From Xanthostigma xanthostigma (lineage: Eukaryota; Arthropoda; Insecta; Raphidioptera; Raphidiidae), in contig OY754466.1 of assembly GCA_963575645.1 (NCBI GenBank), positions 31,714,001-31,778,000 of the forward strand: 64,000 nucleotides of DNA, given 5' to 3'. A model generated the notes under the pieces. The model was not told the DNA's origin, ran no database searches, and saw only the letters and a list, made by a program, of their open reading frames with translations. Shown piece by piece: positions 32,001 through 64,000 of the stretch. Positions within the stretch are counted from its first letter, which is position 1; every line of letters begins with the position of its first letter. The translations under genes and the position numbers were made by a program.

Positions 32001-33244
32001 TAGGTGCAAATGAGTCCTTATAGGCAAAATTGCTTAATTTTATGAGGGTTAGTCTATTTACACTATAACATTTAGGTTTGGATCATTCTTTCATAAGAAA
32101 ATGCAAACTGCATATTTACTATCATTATAAAGCATACAAGCAGTTTTTACATGCTTTATGACAATTAGGGGCACATGAGTCCTTATAGGCAAAATTGCTT
32201 TATTTCATGAGGGTAAGTCTATTTACACTATAACATTCAGGTTTGGATCATTCTCTCATAAGAAAATGCAAACTGCATATTAACCATTATTTTAACGCAT
32301 ACAAGCAGTTTTTACATGCTTTATGACAATTAAGGGTAAATGAGTCCTTATAGGCAAAATTGCTTTATTTCATGAAGGTTAGTCTATTTACACTATAACA
32401 TTTAGGTTTGGATTATTCTCTCATAAGAAAATGCAAACTGCATATTAACCATTATTTTAACGCAGACAAGCAGTTTTTACATGCTTCACGACAATTGTGT
32501 GTAAATGAGTCCTTATAGGCAAAATTGCTTTATTTTACAAAGGTAAGTCTATTTACACTATATCATTCAGGTTTGGATCATTCTCTCATAAGAAAATGCA
32601 AACTGCATATTAACCATTATTTTAACGCATTCAAGCAGTTTTTACATGCTTTATGACAATTAGGGGCAAATGAGTCCTTATAGGCAAAATTGCTTTATTT
32701 CATTAAGGGTAAGTCTATTTACACTATAACATTCAGGTCTGGATCTTTCTCTCATAAGAAAATGCAAACTGCATATTAGCCATTATTTAAACGCAGACAA
32801 GCAGTTTTTACATGCTTTACGACAATTAGGTGCAAATGAGTCTTTATAGGCAAAATTGCTTTATTTCATGAGGGTAAGTCTATTTACACTATAACATTCA
32901 GGTTTGGATCATTCTCTCATAAGAAAATGCAAACTGCATATTAACCATTATTTTAACGCATACAAGCAGTTTTTACAAGTTTTATGACAATTAGGTGCAA
33001 ATGAGTCCTTATAGGCAAAATTGCTTTATTTCATGAGGGTTAGTCTATTTACACTATAACATTTAGGTTTGGATCATTCTTTCATAAGAAAATGCAAACT
33101 GCATATTTACTATCATTTTAACGCATACAAGCAGTTTTTACATGCTTTATGACTATTAGGGGCAAACGAGTCCTTATAGGCAAAATTGCTTTATTTCATA
33201 AAGGTAAGTCTATTTACACTATAACATTCAGGTTTGGATCATTC
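20051..33244 (+). repeat. 13,194-bp higher-order repeat, copy 2
   Basis: Direct tandem partner of the copy beginning at 6,857, with the same monomer order, the same private deletions and few substitutions. Differences noticed by eye from copy 1 are ctatattatt near 20,850, ccatttgttt at about 23,382, aatcagtcc near 24,921, gagggcaag near 25,616, gagtcttta near 28,550 and catgtttta near 28,853. The copies therefore appear well above 99 % identical, though no alignment was run. After 33,244 the next monomer has ctctcgtaag and ccatttttttaacgctgac instead of restarting the unit, so no third copy follows. Confidence 0.9.
24248..29638 (+). repeat. 5,609-bp subrepeat inside HOR copy 2
   Basis: This is the 13,194-bp-shifted equivalent of 11,054-16,444. 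The aaatgcgtcc monomer at 20,135 recurs at 25,744 and the aaaatggcttt monomer at 21,475 recurs at 27,083, giving spacings of 5,609 and 5,608 bp. The segment ends where the gcagacaagaag monomer begins the local two-monomer duplication. Confidence 0.8.
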
Positions 33245-33317
33245 TCTCGTAAGAAAATGCAAACTGCATATTAACCATTTTTTTAACGCTGACAAGCTGT
33301 TTTTACATGCTTTACGA

Positions 33318-37763: not shown

Positions 37764-37780
37764 AAATAAAGCAATTTTGC
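37751..37780. other. Head-to-head inversion junction 1
   Basis: Forward gcagtttttaca (37,751-37,762) is followed by one extra c and then reverse-strand aaataaagc. In monomer coordinates the left arm stops at about 155 and the right arm starts at about 44 on the other strand. The flanking arms could therefore pair only around a loop of about 110 bases. The same junction recurs at about 48,671-48,695 and 61,405-61,430. Confidence 0.9.
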
Positions 37781-38620
37781 CTATAAGGACGCATTTGCCC
37801 CTAATTTTCATAAAGCATGTAAAAACTGCTTGTATGCGTTAAAATAATGGTTAATATGCAGTTTGCATTTTCTTATGAGAGAATGATCCAAACCTGAATG
37901 TTATAGTGTAAATAGACTTTCCCTCATGAATTAAAGCAATTTTGCCTATAAGGACTTATTTGCACCTAATTGTCATAAAGCATGTAAAAACTGCTTGTAA
38001 GCGTTAAAATGATAGTAAATATGCAGTTTGCATTTTCTTATGAGAGAATGATCCAAACGTAATTGTTATAGTGTAAATAGACTAACCCTCATGAAATAAA
38101 GCAATTTTGCCTATAAGGACTCATTTACACCTAATTGTCGTAAAGCATGTAAAAACTGCTTGTCTGCGTTAAAATAATTGTTAATATGCAGTTTGCATTT
38201 TCTTATGAGAGAATGATCCAAACCTGAATGTTATAGTGGAAATAGACTTACCTTCATGAAATAAAGCAATTTTGCCTATAAGGACTTATTTGCCCCTAAT
38301 TGTCATAAAGCATGTAAAAACTGCGTGTATGCGTTAAAATAATGGTTAATATGCAGTTTGCATTTTCTTATGAGAGAATGATCCAAACCTGAATGCAATA
38401 GTGTAAATAGACTTACCCTCATTAAATAAAGCAATTTTGCCTATAAGGACTCATTTTCACCTAATTGTCGTAAAGCATGTAAAAACTGCTTGTCAGGGTT
38501 AAAATAGTAGTTAATATGCAGTTTGCATTTTCTTATGAGAGAATGATCCAAACCTAAATGTTATAGTGTAAATAAACTAACCCTCATGAAATTAAGCAAT
38601 TTTGCTTATAAGGACTCATT
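37764..38620 (-). repeat. Inverted satellite segment 1 (857 bp)
   Basis: Orientation flips here. The forward array stops in gcagtttttaca, at about monomer position 155. After a single c, the reverse complement starts at aaataaagc, monomer position 44. About 5.2 monomers run on the minus strand. Forward orientation resumes at about 38,621 inside actcatttatgacaatt, where reverse-strand catttgc and forward ctttatg share ttt. The segment carries a distinctive ctaattttcataaag variant. Private differences from the second inversion are gcgtgtatgcg near 38,325 and atgcaatag near 38,392. Confidence 0.93.
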
Positions 38621-41600
38621 TATGACAATTAGGTGCAAATGAGTCCTTATAGGCAAAATTGCTTAATTTCATGAGGGTTAGTCTATTTACACTATAACAT
38701 TTAGGTTTGGATCATTCTTTCATAAGAAAATGCAAACTGCATATTTACTATCATTATAAAGCATACAAGCAGTTTTTACATGCTTTATGACAATTAGGTG
38801 CAAATGAGTCCTTATAAGCAAAATTGCTTTATTTCGTGAGGGTAAGTCTATTTTCACTATAACATTCAGGTTTGGATCGTTCTCTCATAAGAAAATGCAA
38901 ACTGCATATTAACCATTGTTTTAACCCTGACAAGCAGTTTTTACATGCTTTACGACAATTAGGTGCAAATGAGTCCTTAAAGACAAAATTGTTTTATTTC
39001 ACAAAGGTAAGTCTTCTTTCACTATAACATTCAGGTTTGGATCGTTCTCTCATAAGAAAATGCAAACTGCATATTAACCATTATTTTAACGCATACAAGC
39101 AGTTTTTACATGCTTTATGACAATTAGGGGCAAATGGGTCCTTATAGGCAAAATTGCTTTATTTCATGAAGGTTAGTCTATTTTCACTATAACATTCAGG
39201 GTTGGATCGTTCTCTCATAAAAAAATGCAAACTGCATATTATCCATTATTTTAACGCATACAAGCAGTTTTTACATGCTTTATGACAATTAGGGGCAAAT
39301 GAGTCCTTATAGGCAAAATTGCTTTATTTCATGAAGGTAAGTCTATTTTCACTTTAACATTCAGGTTTGGATCGTTCTCTCATAAGAAAATGCAAACTGC
39401 ATATTAACCATTATTTTAACGCATACAAGCAGTTTTTACATGCTTTATGACAATTAGGGGCAAATGAGTCCTTATAGGCAAAATTGCTTTATTTCATAAA
39501 GGTAAGTCTATTTAGACTATAACATTCAGGTTTGGATCATTCTCTCATAAGAAAATGCAAACTGCATATTAACCATTATTTTAACGCAGACAAGCAGTTT
39601 TTACATGCTTTACGACAATTAGGTGCAAATGAGTCCTTAAAGACAAAATTGTTTTATTTCACAAAGGTAAGTCTTCTTTCACTATAACATTCAGGTTTGG
39701 ATCGTTCTCTCATAAGAAAATGCAAACTGCATATTAACCATTATTTTTACGCATACAAGCAGTTTTTACATGCTTTATGACAATTAGGGGCAAATGAGTC
39801 CTTATAGGCAAAATTGCTTTATTTCATGAAGGTAAGTCTATTTACACTATAACATTCAGGTTTGGATCATTCTCTCATAAGAAAATGCAAACTGCATATT
39901 AACCATTATTTTAACGCAGACAAGCAGTTTTTACATGCTTTACGACAATTAGGTGCAAATGAGTCCTTATAGGCAAAATTGCTTTATTTCATGAGGGTAA
40001 GTCTATTTACACTATAACATTCAGGTTTGGATCATTCTCTCATAAAAAAATGCAAACTGCATATTATCCATTATTTTAACGCATACAAGCAGTTTTTACA
40101 TGCTTTATGACAATTAGGTTCAAATGAGTCCTTATAGGCAAAATTGCTTTATTTTATGAAGGTAAGTCTATTTCCACTATAACATTCAGGTTTGGATCAT
40201 TCTCTCATAAGAAAATGCAAACTGCATATTAACAATTATTTTAACGCAGACAAGCAGTTTTTACATGCTTTACGACAATTAGGTGTAAATGAGTCCTTAT
40301 AGGCAAAATTGCTTTATTTCATGAGGGTTAGTCTATTTACACTATAACAATTACGTTTGGATCATTCTCTCATAAGAAAATGCAAACTGCATATTTACTA
40401 TCATTTTAACGCTTACAAGCAGTTTTCACATGCTTTATGACAATTAGGTGCAAATAAGTCCTTATAGGCAAAATTGCTTTATTTCATGAGGGTAAGTCTA
40501 CTTACACTATAACATTCAGGTTTGGATCATTCTCTCATAAGAAAATGCAAACTGCATATTAACCATTATTTTAACGCATACAAGCAGTTTTTACATGCTT
40601 TATGACAATTAGGGGCAAATGCGTCCTTATAGGCAAAATTGCTTTATTTAATGAAGGTTAGTCTATTTACACTATAACATTCAGGTTTAGATCGTTCTCT
40701 CATAAGAAAATGCTAACTGCATATCAACCATTATTTTAACGCAGCCAAGCAGTTTTTACATGCTTCACGACAATTGCGTGCAAATGAGTCCTTATAGGCA
40801 AAATTGCTTTATTTTACAAAGGTAAGTCTATTTTCACTATAACATTCAGGTTTGGATCATTCTCTCATAAGAAAATGCAAACTGCATATTAACTATTATT
40901 TTAACGCATACAAGCAGTTTTACATGCTTTATGACAATTAGGGGCAAATGGGTCCTTATAGGCAAAATTGCTTTATTTCATGAAGGTTAGTCTATTTACA
41001 CTATAACATTCAGGTTTGGATCTTTCTCTCATAAGAAAATGCAAACTGCATATTAACCATTATTTAAACGCAGACAAGCAGTTTTTGAATGCTTTACGAC
41101 AATTAGGTGCAAACGAGTCTTTATAGGCAAAATTGCTTTATTTCATGAAGGTAAGTCTATTTACACTATAACATTTAGGTTTGGATCATTCTCTCATAAG
41201 AAAATGCAAACTGCATATTAACCATTATTTTAACGCATACAAGCAGTTTTTACAAGTTTATGACAATTAGGTGCAAATGAGTCCTTATAAGCAAAATTGC
41301 TTAATTTCATGAGGGTTAGTCTATTTACACTATAACATTTAGGTTTGGATCATTCTTTCATAAGAAAATGCAAACTGCATATTTACTATCATTATAACGC
41401 ATACAAGCAGGTTTTACATGCTTTATGACAATTAGGGGCAAATGAGTCCTTATAGGCAAAATTGCTTTATTTCATGAAGGTTAGTCTATTTACACTATAA
41501 CATTCAGGTTTGGATCATTCTCTCATAAGAAAATGCAAACTGCATATTTACTATCATTATAACGCATACAAGCAGTTTTTACATGCTTTATGACAATTAG

Positions 41601-44600
41601 GGGCAAATGAGTCCTTATAGGCAAAATTGCTTTTTTTCATTAAGGTAAGTCTATTTAGACTATAACATTCAGGTTTGGATCATTCTCTCATAAGAAAATG
41701 CAAACTGCATATTAACCATTATTTTAACCCTGACAAGCAGTTTTTACATGCTTTACGACAATTAGGTGCAAATGAGTCTTTATAGGCAAAATTGCTTTAT
41801 TTCATGAGGGTAAGTCTACTTACACTATAACATTTAGGTTTGGATCATTCTCTCATAAGAAAATGCAAACTGCATATTAACCAATATTTTAACGCATACA
41901 AACAGTTTTTACAAGCTTTATGACAATTAGGTGCAAATGAGTCCTTATAGGCAAAATTGCTTAATTTTATAAAGGTAATTCTATTTACACTATAACATTT
42001 AGGTTTGGATCATTCTTTCATAAGAAAATGCAAACTGCATATTTACTATCATTATAAAGCATACAAGCAGTTTTTACATGCTTTATGACAATTAGGGGCA
42101 CATGAGTCCTTATAGGCAAAATTGCTTTATTTCATGAGGGTAAGACTATTTACACTATAACATTCAGGTTTGGATCATTCTCTCATAAGAAAATGCAAAC
42201 TGCATATTAACCATTATTTTAACGCATACAAGCAGTTTTTACATGCTTTATGACAATTAGGGGTTAATGAGTCCTTATAGGCAAAATTGCTTTATTTCAT
42301 GAAGGTTAGTCTATGTACACTATAACATTTAGGTTTGGATTATTCTCTCATAAGAAAATGCAAACTGCATATTAACCATTATTTTAACGCAGACAAGCAG
42401 TTTTTACATGCTTCACGACAATTGTGTGTAAATGAGTCCTTATAGGCAAAATTGCTTTATTTTACAAAGGTAAGTCTATTTACACTATATCATTCAGGTT
42501 TGGATCATTCTCTCATAAGAAAATGCAAACTGCATATTAACCATTATTTTAACGCATTCAAGCAGTTTTTACATGCTTTATGACAATTAGGGGCAAATGA
42601 GTCCTTATAGGCAAAATTGCTTTATTTCATTAAGGGTAAGTCTATTTACACTATAACATTCAGGTCTGGATCTTTCTCTCATAAGAAAATGCAAACTGCA
42701 TATTAGCCATTATTTAAACGCAGACAAGCAGTTTTTACATGCTTTACGACAATTAGGTGCAAATGAGTCTTTATAGGCAAAATTGCTTTATTTCATGAGG
42801 GTAAGTCTATTTACACTATAACATTCAGGTTTGGATCATTCTCTCATAAGAAAATGCAAACTGCATATTAACCATTATTTTAACGCATACAAGCAGTTTT
42901 TACAAGTTTTATGACAATTAGGTGCAAATGAGTCCTTATAGGCAAAATTGCTTTATTTCATGAGGGTTAGTCTATTTACACTATAACATTTAGGTTTGGA
43001 TCATTCTTTCATAAGAAAATTCAAACTGCATATTTACTATCATTTTAACGCATACAAGCAGTTTTTACATGCTTTATGACTATTAGGGGCAAACGAGTCC
43101 TTATAGGCAAAATTGCTTTATTTCATAAAGGTAAGTCTATTTACACTATATAATTCAGGTTTGGATCATTCTCTCGTAAGAAAATGCAAACTGCATATTA
43201 ACCATTTTTTTAACGCTGACAAGCTGTTTTTACATGCTTTACGACAATTAGGTGTAAATGAGTCCTTATAAGCGAAATTGCTTTATTTCACAAAGGTAAG
43301 TTTACTTACACTATAACATTCAGGTTTGGATCATTCTCTCATAAGAAAATGCAAACTGCATATTAACCATTATTTTAACGCATACAAGCAGTTTTTACAT
43401 GCTTTATGACAATTAGGGGTTAAGGAGTCCTTATAGGCAAAATTGCTTTATTTCATGAAGGTTAGTCTATTTACACTATAACATTTAGGTTTGGATTATT
43501 CTCTCATAAGAAAATGCAAACTGCATATTAACCATTATTTTAACGCAGACAAGCAGTTTTTACATGCTTCACGACAATTGTGTGTAAATGAGTCCTTATA
43601 GGCAAAATTGCTTTATTTTACAAAGGTAAGTCTATTTACACTATAACATTCAGGTCTGGATCTTTCTCTCATAAGAAAATGCAAACTGCATATTAGCCAT
43701 TATTTAAACGCAGACAAGCAGTTTTTACATGCTTTACGACAATTAGGTGCAAATGAGTCTTTATAGGCAAAATTGCTTTATTTCATGAGGGTAAGTCTAT
43801 TTACACTATAACATTCAGGTTTGGATCATTCTCTCATAAGAAAATGCAAACGGCATATTAACCATTTTTTTAACGCTGACAAGCTGTTTTTACATGCTTT
43901 ATGACTATTAGGGGCAAGCGAGTCCTTATAGGCAAAATTGCTTTATTTCATAAAGGTAAGTCTATTTACACTATAACATTCAGGTTTGGATCATTCTCTC
44001 GTAAGAAAATGCAAACTGCATATTAACCATTTTTTTAACGCTGACAAGCTGTTTTTACATGCTTTACGACAATTAGGTGTAAATGAGTCCTTATAGGCAA
44101 AATTGCTTTATTTCATGAGGGTAAGTCTATTTACACTATAACATTCAGGTTTGGATCATTCTCTCATAAGAAAATGCAAACTGCATATTAACCATTATTT
44201 TAACGCATACAAGCAGTTTTTACATGCTTTATGACAATTAGGGGCAAATAAGTCCTTATAGGCAAAATTGCTTTATTTCGTGAAGGTAAGTCTATTTACA
44301 CTATAACATTCAGGTTTGGATCATTCTCTCATAAGAAAATGCAAACTGCATATTAACCATTATTTTAACGCAGACAAACAGTTTTTACATGCTTTACGAC
44401 AATTAGGTGCAAATGAGTCCTCATAGGCAAAATTGCTTTATTTCATGAGGGTTAGTCTATTTACACTATAACATTTAGGTTTGGATCATTCTCTCATAAG
44501 GAAATGCAAACTGCATATTTACTATCATTTTAACGCTTACAAGCAGTTTTTACATGCTTTATGACAATTAGGGCAAAGGGGTCCTTATAGGCAAAATTGC

Positions 44601-45884
44601 TTTATTTTACAAAGGTTAGTCTATTTTCACTATAACATTCAGGTTTGGATCATTCTCTCATAAGAAAATGCAAACTGCCTATTAACCATTATTTTAACGC
44701 ATACAAGCAGTTTTTACATGCTTTATGACAATTAGGGGCACATGAGTCCTTATAGGCAAAATTGCTTTATTTCATGAGGGTAAGTCTATTTACACTATAA
44801 CATTCAGGTTTGGATCATTCTCTCATAAGAAAATGCAAACTGCATATTAACCATTATTTTAACGCATACAAGCAGTTTTTACATGCTTTATGACAATTAA
44901 GGGTTAATGAGTCCTTATAGGCAAAATTGCTTTATTTCATGAAGGTTAGTCTATTTACACTATAACATTTAGGTTTGGATTATTCTCTCATAAGAAAATG
45001 CAAACTGCATATTAACCATTATTTTAACGCAGACAAGCAGTTTTTACATGCTTCACGACAATTGTGTGTAAATGAGTCCTTATAGGCAAAATTGCTTTAT
45101 TTTACAAAGGTAAGTCTATTTACACTATATCATTCAGGTTTGGATCATTCTCTCATAAGAAAATGCAAACTGCATATTAACCATTATTTTAACGCATTCA
45201 AGCAGTTTTTACATGCTTTATGACAATTAGGGGCAAATGAGTCCTTATAGGCAAAATTGCTTTATTTCATTAAGGGTAAGTCTATTTACACTATAACATT
45301 CAGGTCTGGATCTTTCTCTCATAAGAAAATGCAAACTGCATATTAGCCATTATTTAAACGCAGACAAGCAGTTTTTACATGCTTTACGACAATTAGGTGC
45401 AAATGAGTCTTTATAGGCAAAATTGCTTTATTTCATGAGGGTAAGTCTATTTACACTATAACATTCAGGTTTGGATCATTCTCTCATAAGAAAATGCAAA
45501 CTGCATATTAACCATTATTTTAACGCATACAAGCAGTTTTTACAAGTTTTATGACAATTAGGTGCAAATGAGTCCTTATAGGCAAAATTGCTTTATTTCA
45601 TGAGGGTTAGTCTATTTACACTATAACATTTAGGTTTGGATCATTCTTTCATAAGAAAATGCAAACTGCATATTTACTATCATTTTAACGCATACAAGCA
45701 GTTTTTACATGCTTTATGACTATTAGGGGCAAACGAGTCCTTATAGGCAAAATTGCTTTATTTCATAAAGGTAAGTCTATTTACACTATAACATTCAGGT
45801 TTGGATCATTCTCTCGTAAGAAAATGCAAACTGCATATTAACCATTTTTTTAACGCTGACAAGCTGTTTTTACATGCTTTACGA
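38621..45884 (+). repeat. Forward monomers between inversion 1 and hexamer block II
   Basis: About 44 forward monomers. The first 2.5 kb has variants rare elsewhere, such as ccttaaagacaaaattg with gtcttctttcac at about 38,975 and 39,635, 660 bp (four monomers) apart. From about 40.1 kb the order follows the 34-mer of the 13.2-kb unit, including caattacgtttgg, aaatgcgtcc and the gcagttttacatg monomer that lacks one t. One member here reads agcagtttttgaatgc at about 41,080, shared only with 51,998. Confidence 0.8.
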
Positions 45885-48290
45885 CAATTAGGTGTAAATG
45901 AGTCCTTATAAGCGAAATTGCTTTATTTCACAAAGGTAAGTTAACTTACACTATAACATTCAGGTTTGGATCATTCTCTCACAAGAAAATGCAAACTGCA
46001 TATTAACTATTATTTTAACGCATACAAGCAGTTTTTACATGCTTTATGACAATTAGGTGCAAATGAGTCCTTATAGGCAAAATTGCTTTATTTCATGAGG
46101 GTAAGTCTATTTACACTATAACATTCAGGTTTGGATCATTCTCTCATAAGAAAATGCAAACTGAATATTGACTATCATTTTCACGCAGACAAGCAGTTTT
46201 TACATGGTTTACGACAATTAGGTGCAAATAAGTCCTTAAAGGCAAAATTGTTTTATTTCACAAAGGTAAGTCTACTTTCACTATAACATTCAGGTTTAGA
46301 TCATTCTCTCATAAGAAAATGCAAACTGCATATTAACCATTATTTTAACGCAGAGAAGCAGTTTTTACATGCTTCACGACAATTGCGTGCAAATGAGTCC
46401 TTATAGGCAAAATTGCTTTATTTTACAAAGGTAAGTCTACTTACACTATAACATTCAGGTTTGGATCATTCTCTCATAAGAAAATGCAAACTTCATATTA
46501 ACCATTATTTTAACGCATACAAGCAGTTTTTACAAGTTTTATGACAATTAGGGGCAAATGAGTCCTTATAGGCAAAATTGCTTTATTTCATAAGGGTTAG
46601 TCTATTTACACTATAACATTTAGGTTTGGATCATTCTTTCATAAGAAAATGCAAACTGCATATTTACTATCATTTTAACGCATACAAACAGTTTTTACAT
46701 GCTTTATGACTATTAGGGGCAAACGAGTCCTTATAGGCAAAATTGCTTTATATCATGAAGGTAAGTCTATTTACACAATAACATTCAGGTTTGGATCATT
46801 CTCTCGTAAGAAAATGCAAACTGCATATTAACCATTTTTTTAACGCTGACAAGCAGTTTTTACATGCTTTACGACAATTAGGTGTAAATGAGTCCTTATA
46901 AGCGAAATTGCTTTATTTCACAAAGGTAAGTTTACTTACACTATAACATTCAGGTTTGGATCATTCTCTCACAGGAAAATGCATATTGCATATTAACTAT
47001 TATTTTAACGCATACAAGCAGTTTTTACATGCTTTATGACAATTAAGTGCAAATGAGTCCTTATAGGCAAAATTGCTTTTTTTCATGAGGGTAAGTCTAT
47101 TTACACTATAACATTCAGGTTTGGATCATTCTCTCATAAGAAAATGCAAACTGAATATTGACTATCATTTTCACGCAGACAAGCAGTTTTTTACATGGTT
47201 TACGACAATTAGGTGCAAATAAGTCCTTAAAGGCAAAATTGTTTTATTTCACAAAGGTAAGTCTACTTTCACTATAACATTCAGGTTTAGATCATTCTCT
47301 CATAAGCAAATGCAAACTGCATATTAACCATTATTTTAACGCAGAGAAGCAGTTTTTACATGCTTCACGACAATTGCGTGCAAATGAGTCCTTATAGGCA
47401 AAATTGCTTTATTTTACAAAGGTAAGTCTATTTACACTATAACATTCAGGTTTGGATCATTCTCTCATAAGAAAATGCAAACTGCATATTAACCATTATT
47501 TTAACGCATACAAGCAGTTTTTACAAGTTTTATGACAATTAGGGGCAAATGAGTCCTTATAGGCAAAATTGCTTTATTTCATGAGTGTTAGTCTATTTAC
47601 ACTATAACATTTAGGTTTGGATCATTCTTTCATAAGAAAATGCAAACTGCATATTTACTATCATTTTAACGCATACAAACAGTTTTTACATGCTTTATGA
47701 CTATTAGGGGCAAACGAGTCCTTATAGGCAAAATTGCTTTATATCATGAAGGTAAGTCTATTTACACAATAACATTCAGGTTTGGATCATTCTCTCGTAA
47801 GAAAATGCAAACTGCATATTAACCATTTTTTTAACGCTGACAAGCAGTTTTTACATGCTTTACGACAATTAGGTGTAAATGAGTCCTTATAAGCGAAATT
47901 GCTTTATTTCACAAAGGTAAGTTTACTTACACTATAACATTCAGGTTTGGATCATTCTCTCACAGGAAAATGAAAACTGCATATTAACTATTATTTTAAC
48001 GCATACAAGCAGTTTTTACATGCTTTATGACAGTTAAGTGCAAATGAGTCCTTATAGGCAAAATTGCTTTATTTCATGAGGGTAAGTCTATTTACACTAT
48101 AACATTCAGGTTTGGATCATTCTCTCATAAGAAAATGCAAACTGAATATTGACTATCATTTTCACGCAGACAAGCAGTTTTTACATGGTTTACGACAATT
48201 AGGTGCAAATAAGTCCTTAAAGGCAAAATTGTTATATTTCACAAAGGTAAGTCTACTTTCACTATAACATTCAGGTTTGGATCATTCTCT
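45885..48290 (+). repeat. 990-bp hexamer higher-order repeat, block II
   Basis: Marker monomers with gtgtaaatgag and ataagcg start at 45,885, 46,875 and 47,866. The second spacing is 991 bp because one t run near 47,188 has six instead of five bases. Just over two units are complete; the third stops near 48,290, where tttggatcat and gcagacaag replace the unit's tttagatcat and gcagagaag. The block ends about 390 bp before the second inversion junction. Confidence 0.88.
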
Positions 48291-48681
48291 CATAAGAAAA
48301 TGCAAACTGCATATTAACCATTATTTTAACGCAGACAAGCAGTTTTTACATGCTTCACGACAATTGCGTTCAAATAAGTCCTTATAGGCAAAATTGCTTT
48401 ATTTTACAAAGGTAAGTCTATTTACACTATAACATTTAGGTTTGGATCATTCTCTAATAAGAAAATGCAAACTGCATATTAACCATTATTTTAACGCAGA
48501 CAAGCAGTTTTTACATGCTTTACGACAATTAGGTGCAAATGAGTCCTTATAGGCGAAATTGCTTTATTTCACAAAGGTAAGTTTACTTACACTATTACAT
48601 TCAGGTTTGGATCATTCTCTCACAAGAAAATGCAAACTGCATATTAACTATTATTTTAACGCATACAAGCAGTTTTTACAC

Positions 48682-49539
48682 AAATAAAGCAATTTTGCCT
48701 ATAAGGACGCATTTGCCCCTAATTTTCATAAAGCATGTAAAAACTGCTTGTATGCGTTAAAATAATGGTTAATATGCAGTTTGCATTTTCTTATGAGAGA
48801 ATGATCCAAACCTGAATGTTATAGTGTAAATAGACTTTCCCTCATGAATTAAAGCAATTTTGCCTATAAGGACTTATTTGCACCTAATTGTCATAAAGCA
48901 TGTAAAAACTGCTTGTAAGCGTTAAAATGATAGTAAATATGCAGTTTGCATTTTCTTATGAGAGAATGATCCAAACGTAATTGTTATAGTGTAAATAGAC
49001 TAACCCTCATGAAATAAAGCAATTTTGCCTATAAGGACTCATTTACACCTAATTGTCGTAAAGCATGTAAAAACTGCTTGTCTGCGTTAAAATAATTGTT
49101 AATATGCAGTTTGCATTTTCTTATGAGAGAATGATCCAAACCTGAATGTTATAGTGGAAATAGACTTACCTTCATGAAATAAAGCAATTTTGCCTATAAG
49201 GACTTATTTGCCCCTAATTGTCATAAAGCATGTAAAAACTGCTTGTATGCGTTAAAATAATGGTTAATATGCAGTTTGCATTTTCTTATGAGAGAATGAT
49301 CCAAACCTGAATGTTATAGTGTAAATAGACTTACCCTCATTAAATAAAGCAATTTTGCCTATAAGGACTCATTTTCACCTAATTGTCGTAAAGCATGTAA
49401 AAACTGCTTGTCAGGGTTAAAATAGTAGTTAATATGCAGTTTGCATTTTCTTATGAGAGAATGATCCAAACCTAAATGTTATAGTGTAAATAAACTAACC
49501 CTCATGAAATTAAGCAATTTTGCTTATAAGGACTCATTT
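48682..49539 (-). repeat. Inverted satellite segment 2 (858 bp)
   Basis: Near-exact copy of the inversion at 37,764, with both breakpoints at the same monomer positions. Entry is after gcagtttttaca into aaataaagc, and exit is within gactcatttatgacaatt. The ctaattttcataaag variant and the lengths match (857 against 858 bp). Identical breakpoints are far more likely to reflect one inversion later copied in the roughly 11-kb unit than two independent events. Confidence 0.93.
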
Positions 49540-52500: not shown

Positions 52501-55500
52501 ATGCTTTATGACAATTAGGGGCAAATGAGTCCTTATAGGCAAAATTGCTTTTTTTCATTAAGGTAAGTCTATTTAGACTATAACATTCAGGTTTGGATCA
52601 TTCTCTCATAAGAAAATGCAAACTGCATATTAACCATTATTTTAACCCTGACAAGCAGTTTTTACATGCTTTACGACAATTAGGTGCAAATGAGTCTTTA
52701 TAGGCAAAATTGCTTTATTTCATGAGGGTAAGTCTACTTACACTATAACATTTAGGTTTGGATCATTCTCTCATAAGAAAATGCAAACTGCATATTAACT
52801 AATATTTTAACGCATACAAACAGTTTTTACAAGCTTTATGACAATTAGGTGCAAATGAGTCCTTATAGGCAAAATTGCTTAATTTTATAAAGGTAATTCT
52901 ATTTACACTATAACATTTAGGTTTGGATCATTCTTTCATAAGAAAATGCAAACTGCATATTTACTATCATTATAAAGCATACAAGCAGTTTTTACATGCT
53001 TTATGACAATTAGGGGCACATGAGTCCTTATAGGCAAAATTGCTTTATTTCATGAGGGTAAGACTATTTACACTATAACATTCAGGTTTGGATCATTCTC
53101 TCATAAGAAAATGCAAACTGCATATTAACCATTATTTTAACGCATACAAGCAGTTTTTACATGCTTTATGACAATTAGGGGTTAATGAGTCCTTATAGGC
53201 AAAATTGCTTTATTTCATGAAGGTTAGTCTATGTACACTATAACATTTAGGTTTGGATTATTCTCTCATAAGAAAATGCAAACTGCATATTAACCATTAT
53301 TTTAACGCAGACAAGCAGTTTTTACATGCTTCACGACAATTGTGTGTAAATGAGTCCTTATAGGCAAAATTGCTTTATTTTACAAAGGTAAGTCTATTTA
53401 CACTATATCATTCAGGTTTGGATCATTCTCTCATAAGAAAATGCAAACTGCATATTAACCATTATTTTAACGCATTCAAGCAGTTTTTACATGCTTTATG
53501 ACAATTAGGGGCAAATGAGTCCTTATAGGCAAAATTGCTTTATTTCATTAAGGGTAAGTCTATTTACACTATAACATTCAGGTCTGGATCTTTCTCTCAT
53601 AAGAAAATGCAAACTGCATATTAGCCATTATTTAAACGCAGACAAGCAGTTTTTACATGCTTTACGACAATTAGGTGCAAATGAGTCTTTATAGGCAAAA
53701 TTGCTTTATTTCATGAGGGTAAGTCTATTTACACTATAACATTCAGGTTTGGATCATTCTCTCATAAGAAAATGCAAACTGCATATTAACCATTATTTTA
53801 ACGCATACAAGCAGTTTTTACAAGTTTTATGACAATTAGGTGCAAATGAGTCCTTATAGGCAAAATTGCTTTATTTCATTAAGGGTAAGTCTATTTACAC
53901 TATAACATTCAGGTCTGGATCTTTCTCTCATAAGAAAATGCAAACTGCATATTAGCCATTATTTAAACGCAGACAAGCAGTTTTTACATGCTTCACGACA
54001 ATTGTGTGTAAATGAGTCCTTATAGGCAAAATTGCTTTATTTTACAAAGGTAAGTCTATTTACACTATATCATTCAGGTTTGGATCATTCTCTCATAAGA
54101 AAATGCAAACTGCATATTAACCATTATTTTAACGCATACAAGCAGTTTTTACATGCTTTATGACTATTAGGGGCAAACGAGTCCTTATAGGCAAAATTGC
54201 TTTATTTCATAAAGGTAAGTCTATTTACACTATATAATTCAGGTTTGGATCATTCTCTCGTAAGAAAATGCAAACTGCATATTAACCATTTTTTTAACGC
54301 TGACAAGCTGTTTTTACATGCTTTACGACAATTAGGTGTAAATGAGTCCTTATAAGCGAAATTGCTTTATTTCACAAAGGTAAGTTTACTTACACTATAA
54401 CATTCAGGTTTGGATCATTCTCTCATAAGAAAATGCAAACTGCATATTAACCATTATTTTAACGCATACAAGCAGTTTTTACATGCTTTATGACAATTAG
54501 GGGTTAATGAGTCCTTATAGGCAAAATTGCTTTATTTCATGAAGGTTAGTCTATTTACACTATAACATTTAGGTTTGGATTATTCTCTCATAAGAAAATG
54601 CAAACTGCATATTAACCATTATTTTAACGCAGACAAGCAGTTTTTACATGCTTCACGACAATTGTGTGTAAATGAGTCCTTATAGGCAAAATTGCTTTAT
54701 TTTACAAAGGTAAGTCTATTTACACTATATCATTCAGGTTTGGATCATTCTCTCATAAGAAAATGCAAACTGCATATTAACCATTATTTTAACGCATTCA
54801 AGCAGTTTTTACATACTTTATGACAATTAGGGGCAAATGAGTCCTTATAGGCAAAATTGCTTTATTTCATTAAGGGTAAGTCTATTTACACTATAACATT
54901 CAGGTCTGGATCTTTCTCTCATAAGAAAATGCAAACTGCATATTAGCCATTATTTAAACGCAGACAAGCAGTTTTTACATGCTTTACGACAATTAGGTGC
55001 AAATCAGTCTTTATAGGCAAAATTGCTTTATTTCATGAGGGTAAGTCTATTTACACTATAACATTCAGGTTTGGATCATTCTCTCATAAGAAAATGCAAA
55101 CGGCATATTAACCATTTTTTTAACGCTGACAAGCTGTTTTTACATGCTTTATGACTATTAGGGGCAAGCGAGTCCTTATAGGCAAAATTGCTTTATTTCA
55201 TAAAGGTAAGTCTATTTACACTATAACATTCAGGTTTGGATCATTCTCTCGTAAGAAAATGCAAACTGCATATTAACCATTTTTTTAACGCTGACAAGCT
55301 GTTTTTACATGCTTTACGACAATTAGGTGTAAATGAGTCCTTATAGGCAAAATTGCTTTATTTCATGAGGGTAAGTCTATTTACACTATAACATTCAGGT
55401 TTGGATCATTCTCTCATAAGAAAATGCAAACTGCATATTAACCATTATTTTAACGCATACAAGCAGTTTTTACATGCTTTATGACAATTAGGGGCAAATA

Positions 55501-57630
55501 AGTCCTTATAGGCAAAATTGCTTTATTTCGTGAAGGTAAGTCTATTTACACTATAACATTCAGGTTTGGATCATTCTCTCATAAGAAAATGCAAACTGCA
55601 TATTAACCATTATTTTAACGCAGACAAACAGTTTTTACATGCTTTACGACAATTAGGTGCAAATGAGTCCTCATAGGCAAAATTGCTTTATTTCATGAGG
55701 GTTAGTCTATTTACACTATAACATTTAGGTTTGGATCATTCTCTCATAAGGAAATGCAAACTGCATATTTACTATCATTTTAACGCTTACAAGCAGTTTT
55801 TACATGCTTTATGACAATTAGGGCAAAGGGGTCCTTATAGGCAAAATTGCTTTATTTTACAAAGGTTAGTCTATTTTCACTATAACATTCAGGTTTGGAT
55901 CATTCTCTCATAAGAAAATGCAAACTGCCTATTAACCATTATTTTAACGCATACAAGCAGTTTTTACATGCTTTATGACAATTAGGGGCACATGAGTCCT
56001 TATAGGCAAAATTGCTTTATTTCATGAAGGGTAAGTCTATTTACACTATAACATTCAGGTTTGGATCTTTCTCTCATAAGAAAATGCAAACTGCATATAT
56101 ACCATTATTTAAACGCAGACAAGCAGTTTTTACATGCTTTACGACAATTAGGTGCAAATGAGTCTTTATAGGCAAAATTGCTTTATTTCATGAGGGTAAG
56201 TCTACTTACACTATAACATTTAGGTTTGGATCATTCTCTCATAAGAAAATGCAAACTGCATATTAACCAATATTTTAACGCATACAAACAGTTTTTACAA
56301 GCTTTATGACAATTAGGTGCAAATGAGTCCTTATAGGCAAAATTGCTTAATTTCATGAGGGTTAGTCTATTTACACTATAACATTTAGGTTTGGATCATT
56401 CTTTCATAAGAAAATGCAAACTGCATATTTACTATCATTATAAAGCATACAAGCAGTTTTTACATGCTTTATGACAATTAGGGGCACATGAGTCCTTATA
56501 GGCAAAATTGCTTTATTTCATGAGGGTAAGTCTATTTACACTATAACATTCAGGTTTGGATCATTCTCTCATAAGAAAATGCAAACTGCATATTAACCAT
56601 TATTTTAACGCATACAAGCAGTTTTTACATGCTTTATGACAATTAGGGGTTAATGAGTCCTTATAGGCAAAATTGCTTTATTTCATGAAGGTTAGTCTAT
56701 TTACACTATAACATTTAGGTTTGGATTATTCTCTCATAAGAAAATGTAAACTGCATATTAACCATTATTTTAACGCAGACAAGCAGTTTTTACATGCTTC
56801 ACGACAATTGTGTGTAAATGAGTCCTTATAGGCAAAATTGCTTTATTTTACAAAGGTAAGTCTATTTACACTATATCATTCAGGTTTGGATCATTCTCTC
56901 ATAAGAAAATGCAAACTGCATATTAACCATTATTTTAACGCATTCAAGCAGTTTTTACATGCTTTATGACAATTAGGGGCAAATGAGTCCTTATAGGCAA
57001 AATTGCTTTATTTCATTAAGGGTAAGTCTATTTACACTATAACATTCAGGTCTGGAGCTTTCTCTCATAAGAAAATGCAAACTGCATATTAGCCATTATT
57101 TAAACGCAGACAAGCAGTTTTTACATGCTTTACGACAATTAGGTGCAAATGAGTCTTTATAGGCAAAATTGCTTTATTTCATGAGGGTAAGTCTATTTAC
57201 ACTATAACATTCAGGTTTGGATCATTCTCTCATAAGAAAATGCAAACTGCATATTAACCATTATTTTAACGCATACAAGCAGTTTTTACAAGTTTTATGA
57301 CAATTAGGTGCAAATGAGTCCTTATAGGCAAAATTGCTTTATTTCATGAGGGTTAGTCTATTTACACTATAACATTTAGGTTTGGATCATTCTTTCATAA
57401 GAAAATGCAAACTGCATATTTACTATCATTTTAACGCATACAAGCAGTTTTTACATGCTTTATGACTATTAGGGGCAAACGAGTCCTTATAGGCAAAATT
57501 GCTTTATTTCATAAAGGTAAGTCTATTTACACTATAACATTCAGGTTTGGATCATTCTCTCGTAAGAAAATGCAAACTGCATATTAACCATTTTTTTAAC
57601 GCTGACAAGCTGTTTTTACATGCTTTACGA
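49540..57630 (+). repeat. Forward monomers between inversion 2 and hexamer block III
   Basis: Forward array corresponding to 38,621-45,884. Up to about 53.87 kb it is collinear with copy 1 at 10,917-10,918 bp offset, sharing rare changes such as taagactattt (42,143 and 53,060) and tctatgtacac (42,312 and 53,229). At 53,879 it departs: a cattaagggtaag and ggtctggatcttt monomer is inserted, then a join of attagccattatttaaacg to gcttcacgacaattgtgtg makes a mosaic monomer. Collinearity returns at gactattagggg, near 54,162. Confidence 0.82.
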
Positions 57631-60600
57631 CAATTAGGTGTAAATGAGTCCTTATAAGCGAAATTGCTTTATTTCACAAAGGTAAGTTTACTTACACTAT
57701 AACATTCAGGTTTGGATCATTCTCTCACAGGAAAATGCAAACTGCATATTAACTATTATTTTAACGCATACAAGCAGTTTTTACATGCTTTATGACAATT
57801 AAGTGCAAATGAGTCCTTATAGGCAAAATTGCTTTTTTTCATGAGGGTAAGTCTATTTACACTATAACATTCAGGTTTGGATCATTCTCTCATAAGAAAA
57901 TGCAAACTGAATAGTGACTATCATTTTCACGCAGACAAGCAGTTTTTACATGGTTTACGACAATTAGGTGCAAATAAGTCCTTAAAGGCAAAATTGTTTT
58001 ATTTCACAAAGGTAAGTCTACTTTCACTATAACATTCAGGTTTAGATCATTCTCTCATAAGAAAATGCAAACTGCATATTAACCATTATTTTAACGCAGA
58101 GAAGCAGTTTTTACATGCTTCACGACAATTGCGTGCAAATGAGTCCTTATAGGCAAAATTGCTTTATTTTACAAAGGTAAGTCTATTTACACTATCACAT
58201 TCAGGTTTGGATCATTCTCTCATAAGCAAATGCAAACTGCATATTAACCATTATTTTAACGCATACAAGCAGTTTTTACAAGTTTTATGACAATTAGGGG
58301 CAAATGAGTCCTTATAGGCAAAATTGCTTTATTTCATGAGGGTTAGTCTATTTACACTATAACATTTAGGTTTGGATCATTCTTTCATAAGAAAATGCAA
58401 ACTGCATATTTACTATCATTTTAACGCATACAAACAGTTTTTACATGCTTTATGACTATTAGGGGCAAACGAGTCCTTATAGGCAAAATTGCTTTATATC
58501 ATGAAGGTAAGTCTATTTACACAATAACATTCAGGTTTGGATCATTCTCTCGTAAGAAAATGCAAACTGCATATTAACCATTTTTTTAACGCTGACAAGC
58601 AGTTTTTACATGCTTTACGACAATTAGGTGTAAATGAGTCCTTATAAGCGAAATTGCTTTATTTCACAAAGGTAAGTTTACTTACACTATAACATTCAGG
58701 TTTGGATCATTCTCTCACAGGAAAATGCAAACTGCATATTAACTATTATTTTAACGCATACAAGCAGTTTTTACATGCTTTATGACAATTAAGTGCAAAT
58801 GAGTCCTTATAGGCAAAATTGCTTTTTTTCATGAGGGTAAGTCTATTTACACTATAACATTCAGGTTTGGATCATTCTCTCATAAGAAAATGCAAACTGA
58901 ATAGTGACTATCATTTTCACGCAGACAAGCAGTTTTTACATGGTTTACGACAATTAGGTGCAAATAAGTCCTTAAAGGCAAAATTGTTTTATTTCACAAA
59001 GGTAAGTCTACTTTCACTATAACATTCAGGTTTAGATCATTCTCTCATAAGAAAATGCAAACTGCATATTAACCATTATTTTAACGCAGAGAAGCAGTTT
59101 TTACATGCTTCACGACAATTGCGTGCAAATGAGTCCTTATAGGCAAAATTGCTTTATTTTACAAAGGTAAGTCTATTTACACTATAACATTCAGGTTTGG
59201 ATCATTCTCTCATAAGCAAATGCAAACTGCATATTAACCATTATTTTAACGCATACAAGCAGTTTTTACAAGTTTTATGACAATTAGGGGCAAATGAGTC
59301 CTTATAGGCAAAATTGCTTTATTTCATGAGGGTTAGTCTATTTACACTATAACATTTAGGTTTGGATCATTCTTTCATAAGAAAATGCAAACTGCATATT
59401 TACTATCATTTTAACGCATACAAACAGTTTTTACATGCTTTATGACTATTAGGGGCAAACGAGTCCTTATAGGCAAAATTGCTTTATATCATGAAGGTAA
59501 GTCTATTTACACAATAACATTCAGGTTTGGATCATTCTCTCGTAAGAAAATGCAAACTGCATATTAACCATTTTTTTAACGCTGACAAGCAGTTTTTACA
59601 TGCTTTACGACAATTAGGTGTAAATGAGTCCTTATAAGCGAAATTGCTTTATTTCACAAAGGTAAGTTTACTTACACTATAACATTCAGGTTTGGATCAT
59701 TCTCTCACAGGAAAATGCAAACTGCATATTAACTATTATTTTAACGCATACAAGCAGTTTTTACATGCTTTATGACAATTAAGTGCAAATGAGTCCTTAT
59801 AGGCAAAATTGCTTTTTTTCATGAGGGTAAGTTTATTTACACTATAACATTCAGGTTTGGATCATTCTCTCATAAGAAAATGCAAACTGAACAGTGACTA
59901 TCATTTTCACGCAGACAAGCAGTTTTTACATGGTTTACGACAATTAGGTGCAAATAAGTCCTTAAAGGCAAAATTGTTTTATTTCACAAAGGTAAGTCTA
60001 CTTTCACTATAACATTCAGGTTTAGATCATTCTCTCATAAGAAAATGCAAACTGCATATTAACCATTATTTTAACGCAGAGAAGCAGTTTTTACATGCTT
60101 CACGACAATTGCGTGCAAATGAGTCCTTATAGGCAAAATTGCTTTATTTTACAAAGGTAAGTCTATTTACACTATAACATTCAGGTTTGGATCATTCTCT
60201 CATAAGCAAATGCAAACTGCATATTAACCATTATTTTAACGCATACAAGCAGTTTTTACAAGTTTTATGACAATTAGGGGCAAATGAGTCCTTATAGGCA
60301 AAATTGCTTTATTTCATGAGGGTTAGTCTATTTACACTATAACATTTAGGTTTGGATCATTCTTTCATAAGAAAATGCAAACTGCATATTTACTATCATT
60401 TTAACGCATACAAACAGTTTTTACATGCTTTATGACTATTAGGGGCAAACGAGTCCTTATAGGCAAAATTGCTTTATATCATGAAGGTAAGTCTATTTAC
60501 ACAATAACATTCAGGTTTGGATCATTCTCTCGTAAGAAAATGCAAACTGCATATTAACCATTTTTTTAACGCTGACAAGCAGTTTTTACATGCTTTACGA

Positions 60601-61015
60601 CAATTAGGTGTAAATGAGTCCTTATAAGCGAAATTGCTTTATTTCACAAAGGTAAGTTTACTTACACTATAACATTCAGGTTTGGATCATTCTCTCACAG
60701 GAAAATGCAAACTGCATATTAACTATTATTTTAACGCATACAAGCAGTTTTTACATGCTTTATGACAGTTAAGTGCAAATGAGTCCTTATAGGCAAAATT
60801 GCTTTATTTCATGAGGGTAAGTCTATTTACACTATAACATTCAGGTTTGGATCATTCTCTCATAAGAAAATGCAAACTGAATATTGACTATCATTTTCAC
60901 GCAGACAAGCAGTTTTTACATGGTTTACGACAATTAGGTGCAAATAAGTCCTTAAAGGCAAAATTGTTTTATTTCACAAAGGTAAGTCTACTTTCACTAT
61001 AACATTCAGGTTTGG
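57631..61015 (+). repeat. 990-bp hexamer higher-order repeat, block III
   Basis: Marker monomers start at 57,631, 58,621, 59,611 and 60,601, each 990 bp apart, giving three complete units plus about 415 bp of a fourth. Units here share aaactgaatagtgac (aacagtgac in the third), while block II and the last partial unit read aatattgac. Units inside this block are thus closer to one another than to those in block II, as expected from local expansion. It stops where tttggatcat replaces tttagatcat. Confidence 0.9.
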
Positions 61016-61416
61016 ATCATTCTCTCATAAGAAAATGCAAACTGCATATTAACCATTATTTTAACGCAGACAAGCAGTTTTTACATGCTTCACGACAATT
61101 GCGTTCAAATGAGTCCTTATAGGCAAAATTGCTTTATTTTACAAAGGTAAGTCTATTTACACTATAACATTCAGGTTTGGATCATTCTCTCATAAGAAAA
61201 TGCAAACTGCATATTAACCATTATTTTAACGCAGACAAGCAGTTTTTACATGCTTTACGACAATTAGGTGCAAATGAGTCCTTATAGGCGAAATTGCTTT
61301 ATTTCACAAAGGTAAGTTTACTTACACTATTACATTCAGGTTTGGATCATTCTCTCACAAGAAAATGCAAACTGCATATTAACTATTATTTTAACGCATA
61401 CAAGCAGTTTTTACAC

Positions 61417-64000
61417 AAATAAAGCAATTTTGCCTATAAGGACGCATTTGCCCCTAATTTTCATAAAGCATGTAAAAACTGCTTGTATGCGTTAAAATAA
61501 TGGTTAATATGCAGTTTGCATTTTCTTATGAGAGAATGATCCAAACCTGAATGTTATAGTGTAAATAGACTTTCCCTCATGAATTAAAGCAATTTTGCCT
61601 ATAAGGACTTATTTGCACCTAATTGTCATAAAGCATGTAAAAACTGCTTGTAAGCGTTAAAATGATAGTAAATATGCAGTTTGCATTTTCTTATGAGAGA
61701 ATGATCCAAACGTAATTGTTATAGTGTAAATAGACTAACCCTCATGAAATAAAGCAATTTTGCCTATAAGGACTCATTTACACCTAATTGTCGTAAAGCA
61801 TGTAAAAACTGCTTGTCTGCGTTAAAATAATTGTTAATATGCAGTTTGCATTTTCTTATGAGAGAATGATCCAAACCTGAATGTTATAGTCTAAATAGAC
61901 TTACCTTTATGAAATAAAGCAATTTTGCCTATAAAGACTTATTTGCCCCTAATTGTCATAAAGCATGTAAAAACTGCTTGTATGTGTTAAAATAATGGTT
62001 AATATGCAGTTTGCATTTTCTTATGAGAGAATGATCCAAACCTGAATGTTATAGTGAAAATAGACTTACCTTTGTAAAATAAAGCAATTTTGCCTATAAG
62101 GACTCATTATCCCCTAATTGTCATAAAGCATGTAAAAACTGCTTGTATGCGTTAAAATAATGGATAATATGCAGTTTGCATTTTCTTATGAGAGAACGAT
62201 CCAAACCTGAATGTTATAGTGAAAATAGACTAACCTTCATGAAATAAAGCAATTTTGCCTATAAGGACCCATTTGCCCCTAATTGTCATAAAGCATGTAA
62301 AAACTGCTTGTATGCGTTAAAATAATGGTTAATATGCAGTTTGCATTTTCTTATGAGAGAACGATCCAAACCTGAATGTTATAGTGAAAGTAGACTTACC
62401 CTCATGAAATAAAGCAATTTTGCCTATAAGGACTCATTTGCACCTAATTGTCGTAAAGCATGTAAAAACTGCTTGTCAGGGTTAAAATAATGGTTAATAT
62501 GCAGTTTACATTTTCTTATGAGAGAATGATCCAAACCTGAATGTTATAGTGTAAATAGACTTACCTTATGAAATAAAGCAATTTTGCTTATTAAGACTCA
62601 TTTGCTTCTAATTGTCATAAAGCGTGTAAAAACTGCTTGTCAGCGTTAAAAAAATGGTTATTATGCAGTTTGCATTTTCTTATGAGAGAATGATCCAAAC
62701 CTGTTTGTTATAGTGTAAATAGACTTACATTCATGAAATATAGCAATTTTGCCTATAAGGACTCCTTTGCCCCTAATTGTCATAAAGCATGTAAAAACTG
62801 CTTGTATGCGTTAAAATAATGTATAATATGCAGTTTGCATTTTCTTATGAGAGAATGATCCAAACCTGAATGTTATAGTGTAACTAGACTTACCTTTGTA
62901 AAATAAAGCATTTTTGCTTATAAGGACTCATTTGCACGCAATTGTCGTGAAGCATGTAAAAACTGCTTCTCTGCGTTAAAATAATGGTTAATATGCAGTT
63001 TGCATTTTCTTATGAGAGAATGATCCAAACCTGAATGTTATAGTGAAAGTAGACTTACCTTTGTGAAATAAAACAATTTTGCCTTTAAGGACTCATTTGC
63101 ACCTAATTGTCGTAAAGCATGTAAAAACTGCTTGTCAGGGTTAAAATAATGGTTAATATGCATTTTGCATTTTTTTATGAGAGAATGATCCAAACCTGAA
63201 TGTTATAGTCTAAATAGACTTATCTTTATGAAATAAAGCAATTTTGCCTATAAGGACTCATTTGCCCCTAATTGTCATAAAGCATGTAAAAACTGCTTGT
63301 ATGCGTTAAAATAATGGTTAATATGCAGTTTGCATTTTCTTATGAGAGAACGATCCAAACCTGAATGTTATAGTGAAAATAGACTTACCTTCATGAAATA
63401 AAGCAATTTTGCCTATAAGGACTCATTTGCCCCTAATTGTCATAAAGCATGTAAAAACTGCTTGTATGCGTTAAAATAATGTATAATATGCAGTTTGCAT
63501 TTTCTTATGAGAGAACAATCCAAACCTGAATGTTATAGTGAAAATAGACTAACCTTCATGAAATAAAGCAATTTTGCCTATAAGGACCCATTTGCCCCTA
63601 ATTGTCATAAAGCATGTAAAAACTGCTTGTATGCGTTAAAATAATAGTTAATATGCAGTTTGAATTTTCTTGTGAGAGAATGATCCAAACCTGAATGTAA
63701 TAGTGTAAGTAAACTTACCTTTGTGAAATAAAGCAATTTCGCCTATAAGGACTCATTTGCACCTAATTGTCGTAAAGCATGTAAAAACTGCTTGTCTGCG
63801 TTAAAATAATGGTTAATATGCAGTTTGCATTTTCTTATGAGAAAATAATCCAAACCTGAATGTTATAGTGTAAATAGACTAACCTTCATGAAATAAAGCA
63901 ATTTTGCCTATAAGGACTTATTTGCCCCTAATTGTCATAAAGCATGTAAAAACTGCTTGTATGCGTTAAAATAATGGTTAATATGCAGTTTGCATTTTCT
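61417..64000 (-). repeat. Inverted satellite segment 3, open at window end
   Basis: The entry junction is the same as at 37,764 and 48,682 (gcagtttttaca, c, aaataaagc), including the ctaattttcataaag variant. It matches the other inversions until about 61,878, where tagtctaaatag replaces tagtggaaatag. From there minus-strand monomers continue for over 2.1 kb with different content. Some are reverse complements of hexamer members: 62,930-63,095 carries gcttctctgcg followed by aaaacaattttgcctttaag, in the order expected from an inverted hexamer pair. 63,660-63,750 carries cttgtgagag and caatttcgcc. The orientation does not return to plus before 64,000. Confidence 0.92.

Follow-up and report, generated by a model that had tools for sequence, protein, structure and literature searches.

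Probable copying of a small inverted satellite segment along one chromosome of Xanthostigma xanthostigma, with a probable ~854-kb inversion at one of its copies

We analyzed a window of 64,000 bp from the genome of Xanthostigma xanthostigma (assembly GCA_963575645.1, 623 Mb in 28 contigs; positions 31,714,001–31,778,000 of contig OY754466.1, here called C3). The window consists throughout of one 165-bp satellite, parts of which lie inverted on the minus strand. The sequence at which the array turns from plus to minus (opening junction) and the sequence at which it turns back (closing junction) each occur in five exact copies genome-wide, all on C3. Four of the five pairs bound short minus blocks. 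The fifth is split: its closing junction lies reversed about 854 kb from its opening. We consider it likely that one small segment of the array was inverted and then copied along C3, and that a crossover in one of the copies inverted the ~854 kb of satellite in between.

Inverted blocks within the window

Tandem Repeats Finder (TRF) reported positions 1–61,415 as one array and 61,417–64,000 as the same array in reverse. A search for a 22-nt anchor, in which up to 4 mismatches were allowed, yielded 387 monomers in the window, 362 on the plus and 25 on the minus strand, the average identity between monomer pairs being 91% (random monomers differ by ~9%). The minus monomers are grouped into three blocks, which we refer to as J1, J2 and J3.

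1–64,000, no strand assigned: 165-bp satellite array (TRF, monomer anchors, genome mapping)
37,764–38,621, minus strand: inverted block J1, 858 bp (monomer anchors, junction alignment)
48,682–49,539, minus strand: inverted block J2, 858 bp (monomer anchors, junction alignment)
61,417–64,000, minus strand: start of the minus domain J3, with a presumed end at C3:32,629,666 (~854 kb), at the flipped closing junction
37,700–37,840, no strand assigned: opening junction (plus to minus), inverted-repeat arms ~54 nt apart; its word also at 48,682, 61,417, C3:31316345 and C3:31702583
38,560–38,690, no strand assigned: closing junction (minus to plus), a foldback with a 15-nt spacer and 3 shared nt (TTT); its word also at 49,540, C3:31325779 and C3:31711194, and reversed at ~C3:32629666

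An initial annotation of the window had described the three blocks as beginning with the same junction, the same breakpoint phase and the same sequence variant. Alignment bears this out: all three openings (37,764, 48,682 and 61,417) have identical sequence in the preceding 60 bp and the following 61 bp, and each contains the variant ctaattttcataaag. J1 and J2, said to close identically after 857–858 bp, indeed have closings that are alike, both after 858 bp. No closing of J3 is found inside the window, and the minus orientation continues unbroken to C3 31,788,000. In the 287 kb examined for it, ctaattttcataaag occurs 17 times; 5 of these occurrences lie in openings and the other 12 in un-inverted array at C3 31.217–31.387 Mb, a distribution that has to be read with the fact that 31.2–31.4 Mb makes up the larger part of this sequence (1,150 versus 389 plus monomers).

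Genome-wide map of the junction sequences

A 33-nt word spanning the opening junction, searched with up to 3 mismatches, has 5 matches genome-wide. All are exact, on the plus strand and on C3 (31,316,330, 31,702,568, 31,751,749, 31,762,667 and 31,775,402). The closing word, searched in the same way, also has 5 exact matches, all on C3, four on the plus strand (31,325,764, 31,711,179, 31,752,607 and 31,763,525) and one on the minus strand (32,629,649). Reversed control patterns of both words gave no match genome-wide, so that the recurrence of the junction words is not a matter of chance. We call the two additional copies to the left of the window K1 and K2. Four pairs of openings and closings bound minus blocks, with lengths of 9,434 bp (K1), 8,611 bp (K2) and 858 bp (J1 and J2), and the differences between these lengths correspond to whole numbers of monomers within two bases. 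Along C3 the openings are spaced by 386,238, 49,181, 10,918 and 12,735 bp. Regularly spaced junctions along the chromosome, as the initial annotation had expected, are thus not seen, the intervals of the genome-wide map being 386, 49, 10.9 and 12.7 kb.

The third junction and a probable 854-kb minus domain

The fifth opening (window position 61,417, C3 31,775,417) has no nearby closing junction, and the fifth closing junction is found reversed ~854 kb away. If the J3 block had recombined with distant plus-strand satellite, one would expect exactly such a missing near closing, a reversed far closing and minus orientation between them. The 12.6 kb from J3 to 31,788,000 are all minus, as are 20 of 20 samples between 31.80 and 32.61 Mb, and 9 of 9 samples between 32.65 and 33.10 Mb are plus. 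Coverage of the J3 interval consists of the 20 samples of 500 bp each, the 12.6 kb contiguous at the left end and ~5.5 kb contiguous at the right end; the strand samples were picked after discovery of the flipped closing. Outside the interval, 17 samples of a first set (n = 20) were plus and 2 minus, one containing no monomers, and a second set (n = 16) had 11 plus and 5 minus. A partial survey for tail-to-tail switches (anchor gaps of 79–202) revealed none between J3 and the flipped closing, and a later genome-wide search with the opening word revealed no flipped opening. The opening at 31,775,417 and the flipped closing at ~32,629,666, with minus sequence between them in the samples, form reciprocal junctions as expected from recombination between inverted repeats.

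The right flank of the flipped closing matches that of K1 over ~4.1 kb, where 22 of 25 bins reach ≥98% and three gaps (366, 164 and 164 bp) occur. It resembles J1 and J2 for ~1 kb and K2 from ~1.2 to 3.3 kb. Shortly past the K1 closing, at C3:31326211-31326742, ~366 bp are found that are absent from the flipped copy. As to the placement of the crossover, J3 departs from the shared opening sequence after +473, and the flipped closing keeps ~0.4 kb of K1-like block sequence. The J3 junction has the appearance of one border of an inverted domain of 854 kb, whose opposite border holds the missing half of the block. According to the initial annotation the inversion was something other than an orientation switch at an array border. 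For the third junction this does not hold: it is the border of an orientation domain, which appears to run minus for ~854 kb up to the flipped closing junction.

Relationships among the copies

We compared the five openings over a core from -233 to +473, limits chosen where differences between groups of copies start. Within these 707 bp only 7 columns are variable, 6 of them private to K2 and 1 to J2. Beyond the core most pairs of copies drop to ~90% identity, exceptions being J1–J2 rightward and J2–J3 leftward, and K1–K2 identity climbs again inside the block. Counted from the opening, J1 and J2 are alike for ~5.1 kb rightward and ~330 bp leftward, and J2 and J3 for ~3.1 kb leftward. The view of the initial annotation that one inversion had been copied is well supported by the five exact openings and closings and the near-identical core.

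The flanks of the copies are mosaic. Of the K1 left flank, the 329 bp that extend to 2 bases from the junction are 100% identical to five un-inverted places at 31.272–31.311 Mb, which indicates that exchange with un-inverted array reached close to the junction. K1 and K2 (57 and 52 monomers) share 33 collinear monomers at ≥97.5%, compared with a mean of 13.7 and a maximum of 18 in 200 shuffles. Between the J1 and K2 blocks there are 7 mismatches in the first 792 bp, after which just the last 46 bp before the closing are mismatch-free; the K2 block exceeds J1 by 7,753 bp, i.e. 47 monomers less 2 bases. When sample size was equalized at 389 monomers, the mean best match of the K2 block and of the J3 domain was 0.980–0.986 to the plus array at 31.2–31.4 Mb, versus 0.968 to the adjoining plus array. 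Judging by this resemblance and by the distribution of the ctaattttcataaag variant, the inverted block probably arose in an array like that around K1 and spread to the right.

Local repeat structure

Around the blocks the window contains several larger duplications:

6,863–33,250, plus strand: two tandem copies, 99.9% alike, of an 80-monomer unit (13,194 bp), without any minus monomer (monomer comparison)
30,116–35,395, plus strand: P segment, with copies at 44,827–47,963 (partial, 99.65%) and 54,427–59,708 (99.5%), ahead of the second and third blocks
37,376–42,847, no strand assigned: 33-monomer duplicated segment containing J1, copy at 48,294–53,765 (99.8%)
45,488–49,265, no strand assigned: 23-monomer segment with the J2 opening, copy at 58,224–62,000 (99.2%) containing the J3 opening

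The part of the window from 30.1 to 62 kb thus holds three irregular tandem copies of an arrangement in which a P segment is followed by an inverted block. The tandem duplication of 13,194 bp is very young, and older duplications lie inside it at offsets of 5,609 and 7,585. A regular higher-order repeat (HOR) across the whole window was rejected: among the monomer lags examined (1–40, 66 and 80), lag 80 accounts for 27% of pairs at ≥98.5%, lag 34 for 18% and lag 66 for 12%, all other lags staying below 8%.

On C3 the satellite spans 31.0 to 33.3 Mb as judged by samples. The 165-bp monomer is the sole satellite in the window and in 200 kb at 31.2–31.4 Mb, with 58–61 monomers per 10 kb; elsewhere the array was sampled. 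At least one non-satellite insert is present, in 1 of the 36 samples outside the J3 interval (C3:31540001-31540500). It has one minus-strand frame open over 166 codons and, by its motifs, may be a BEL/Pao retrotransposon; a Pfam search of this sample returned 0 families at E 0.01.

Formation of the first inversion

At the K1 closing the inverted-repeat arms differ at a single position of the first 116 bp and at 16 positions of 330, where random monomers differ by ~9%. The reversed block end finds its best un-inverted matches at 31,222,614 and 31,259,406 (98.2%). The right flank matches the same two places 15 nt earlier (96.7%), and its own best un-inverted matches lie elsewhere, at 31,349,999 (98.2%) and 31,392,330 (97.9%). 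A snap-back template switch would fit these closing-side matches only loosely. A clean-ended inversion in situ was rejected, since the breakpoint phases mismatch: the left plus flank stops ~21 bp short of the minus block end. The right flank repeats ~48 bp of the block start, and a staggered-break duplication is unsupported, as this ~48-bp overlap differs at 4 positions. A messy inversion in situ may be an alternative origin.

Proposed history and alternative explanations

In our reconstruction a segment of the satellite array was flipped, probably by template switching during replication, which would have produced a block bounded by an opening and a closing junction, with the closing side as a snap-back of the strand on itself. 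The block with its junctions and flanking array would then have been copied along C3 to five places by segmental duplication and unequal exchange, while exchange with un-inverted array would have replaced all but the few hundred bp of flank nearest to them. A deletion in monomer register would have cut the block from ~8.6 kb to 858 bp before the duplication that gave J1 and J2. In the third of the window copies, the inverted block would have crossed over with homologous satellite of opposite strand ~854 kb away. The intervening array would thereby have been inverted, with the opening staying at 61,417 and the closing junction ending up in flipped orientation at C3 32.63 Mb.

Several observations weigh against this history. 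In the flipped copy the block end matches K1 for ~0.4 kb only and then again from 0.8 to 1.15 kb. The left flank of J3 is nearest to J2 and the right flank of the flipped closing nearest to K1; with such a mosaic fifth pair, its two halves need not derive from one block. The 854-kb interval was sampled, so short plus blocks may exist inside it, and samples can indeed miss small blocks, as a switch at C3:32762640 fell between plus samples. The snap-back step is weakened by the different best matches of right flank and block end. In addition, the J1 closing arms, in which the block end is replaced, differ at 6 of 116 and 27 of 330 positions, and the opening arms show neither a clean foldback nor near-identity; dissimilar arms would be expected at the opening if it was the return switch. 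The large inversion was given its direction by parsimony, and the whole reading is based on a single assembly.

The initial annotation had regarded the inversion as a fixed component of an 11–13 kb HOR, i.e. an inverted block amplified in tandem together with its unit. The three irregular tandem copies of P segment and block, with spacings of 10,918 and 12,735 bp between the J openings, are the part of this claim that stands. The C1 contig, where 43 switches of one gap class lie in 2.1 Mb, adds to it, as such abundance means that amplification of strand switches does occur in this genome. On C3, however, only five copies were found genome-wide, at irregular spacings (386, 49, 10.9 and 12.7 kb), so that the remaining copies lie 49 and 386 kb off, the upstream 13.2-kb unit contains no switch, block lengths vary tenfold, and the third junction has no local closing. 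We regard a true HOR as unlikely, the genome-wide map having largely refuted it. Another explanation would be independent inversions that recur at a hot-spot word, e.g. a hairpin-prone site. In its favor, folding is predicted for both sides of J1 as single-stranded DNA, with a strong hairpin at the closing (-51.1 kcal/mol, z -16.8) and a weaker structure at the opening (-29 kcal/mol, z -6.6). However, 7 variable columns of 707 in five opening cores are far below the ~9% of random monomers, the same rare variant is found throughout, and 4 of 5 closings pair with an opening, so we hold recurrent inversion to be very improbable.

Inverted satellite sequence is a known trap for assemblers, and foldback (palindromic) reads or graph misjoins could in principle have created both the junctions and the 854-kb inversion. 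Our evidence is assembled sequence, and inverted homologous blocks do lie at the domain border. Against an artefact stand the exact breakpoints of five copies that carry private variants and lie in different flank contexts, block lengths that differ by whole monomers to within two bases, and the balance of junction and strand orientations; from chimeric reads one would expect breaks at varied places. We judge this explanation to be quite improbable. There is likewise little probability in our view that the large inversion is the older event and the small blocks were derived from it by later re-inversion and copying. An inversion by crossover is reversible, so that junction orientation by itself sets no direction, and the J3 minus domain resembles the 31.2–31.4 Mb array. 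Yet 4 of 5 closings are in the unflipped state, which makes a single flip the simpler history. Copying of a small inverted segment followed by one large inversion hence remains the reading that we favor.

Other strand switches in the genome

A 19-nt anchor of the satellite has 56,089 forward and 60,042 reverse matches genome-wide. As 79% of the monomers in the examined stretches carry it, this would correspond to ~147,000 monomers or 24 Mb, if the share holds. Tail-to-tail switches were surveyed with exact 14-mer anchors at gaps of 79–202. These anchors are present in 82% of the monomers of the two stretches examined, so about two thirds of the junctions are expected to be detected, and repeat counts from the genome searches are lower bounds. 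At gaps of 110–140 there are at least 12 sites, five being the openings studied here and seven others each having its own sequence. At gaps of 172–202 there are at least 49, with 43 on C1 (C1:39539571-41650238) and 6 on C4. Of the C1 sites 40 share the same match length (224), and for 23 the sequence was displayed; the 6 C4 sites were compared by length, which is the same in 5. Gaps of 79–109 yielded at least 2 sites, on C1, and gaps of 141–171 at least one site on C3 and 18 matches on C6. Further switches on C3 lie at 31,105,408, 32,762,640 and 33,158,774. Interior arrays or switches of the satellite are found on C1, C3, C4, C6, C7, C8 and C9. Based on the survey counts, C1 and C3 clearly carry recurrent strand switches and C4 and C6 probably do so, and the recurrent switch of C1 is far more copied than the C3 junction.

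The 18 matches on C6 (C6:26249543-26283808 and 27447846-27455574) pair at a distance of 165 bp and thus represent nine tail-to-tail junctions, which would have an anchor gap of ~5 bp and be near-palindromes. On C1 some of the switches form triples. The two later triples are spaced by ~21.8–21.9 and then 3.7 kb, the earlier one by 3.7 and then 21.6 kb, as if it were flipped relative to the others. Further minus samples on C3 (C3:31580001-31608250 and 33200001-33300250) are not bounded by the studied junction words; the switch at 33158774 fits the second.

Comparison with known systems

The closest known system appears to be that of the Tribolium satellites TmSat1 and TmSat2, for which conserved inversion sites and macro-dyad symmetries are described (PMC13081366). 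In the sections of that report available to us, the inversion sites INV_1a and INV_1b comprise 2044 sequences at 98.9% and 3486 sequences at 98.2% identity, respectively (PMC13081366). Going by these sections, both systems have array-scale strand switches, a conserved junction in many copies, inverted subarrays in the kilobase range and arrays of several megabases. Conserved inversion-site sequences are present on C3 in the form of five exact copies of each word. The Tribolium sections report thousands of copies of inversion sites and two intermingled satellites, whereas the C3 stretches that were read consist of one 165-bp satellite, and two intermingled major and minor satellites are found neither in the window nor at 31.2–31.4 Mb. 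Also unlike Tribolium, as far as described there, the pair of junction words is confined to one chromosome, where each word has five copies and the members of one pair lie 854 kb apart. With respect to subarray symmetry, the blocks of 0.86–9.4 kb inside a long plus array are asymmetrical, and the genome-wide strand counts of the 19-mer are near equal.

Large inversions of alpha-satellite arrays have been described for orangutan chromosome 20 (3.2 Mb) and macaque chromosomes 5 and 10 (PMC11062924) as well as for human centromere 1 (PMC9549924). The relevant passages share with C3 the reversal of large stretches; unlike in those passages, the borders of the large domain on C3 carry the two halves of a small copied inversion. 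In origin-dependent inverted-repeat amplification (ODIRA), inverted duplications arise via template switching (PMC10766183). Judged by the excerpt consulted, the common feature is an inverted junction that template switching can make, as we propose for the closing side. Unlike ODIRA as portrayed in this excerpt, the C3 case concerns a satellite array, has no tie to an origin or to extrachromosomal DNA and has a foldback appearance at the closing side only. A search of the literature, in which few subscription papers were included and sources were seen in part, yielded no copied small satellite inversion with halves bordering a large one.

Implications for satellite evolution

In the accessible text on Tribolium madens, macro-dyad symmetries of satellites are stated to be documented exclusively in Tribolium (PMC13081366). 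If so, the genome analyzed here would widen the phenomenon beyond this genus. Large satellite inversions have been reported, and the origin of their breakpoints is hard to see, as the sequence is alike everywhere. On C3 the ends of the domain carry the separated halves of a block and intact copies survive in the array, so that it becomes possible to read and test how a small flip could lead to one of near-megabase size. This would link tiny and giant inversions in satellite DNA. The junction cores can further serve as markers of exchange, staying ~99–100% alike while their flanks were exchanged away.

We suggest, only tentatively, that satellite evolution in this genome generally proceeds through the copying of strand-switch cassettes private to a chromosome (on C1, C3 and probably C4 and C6), and that these cassettes seed large flips. 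A small inverted block would give the array a partner of opposite strand, with which later crossovers could flip hundreds of kilobases. If this is true, the strand domains of megabase arrays would stem from few founder foldbacks and not from independent large breaks.

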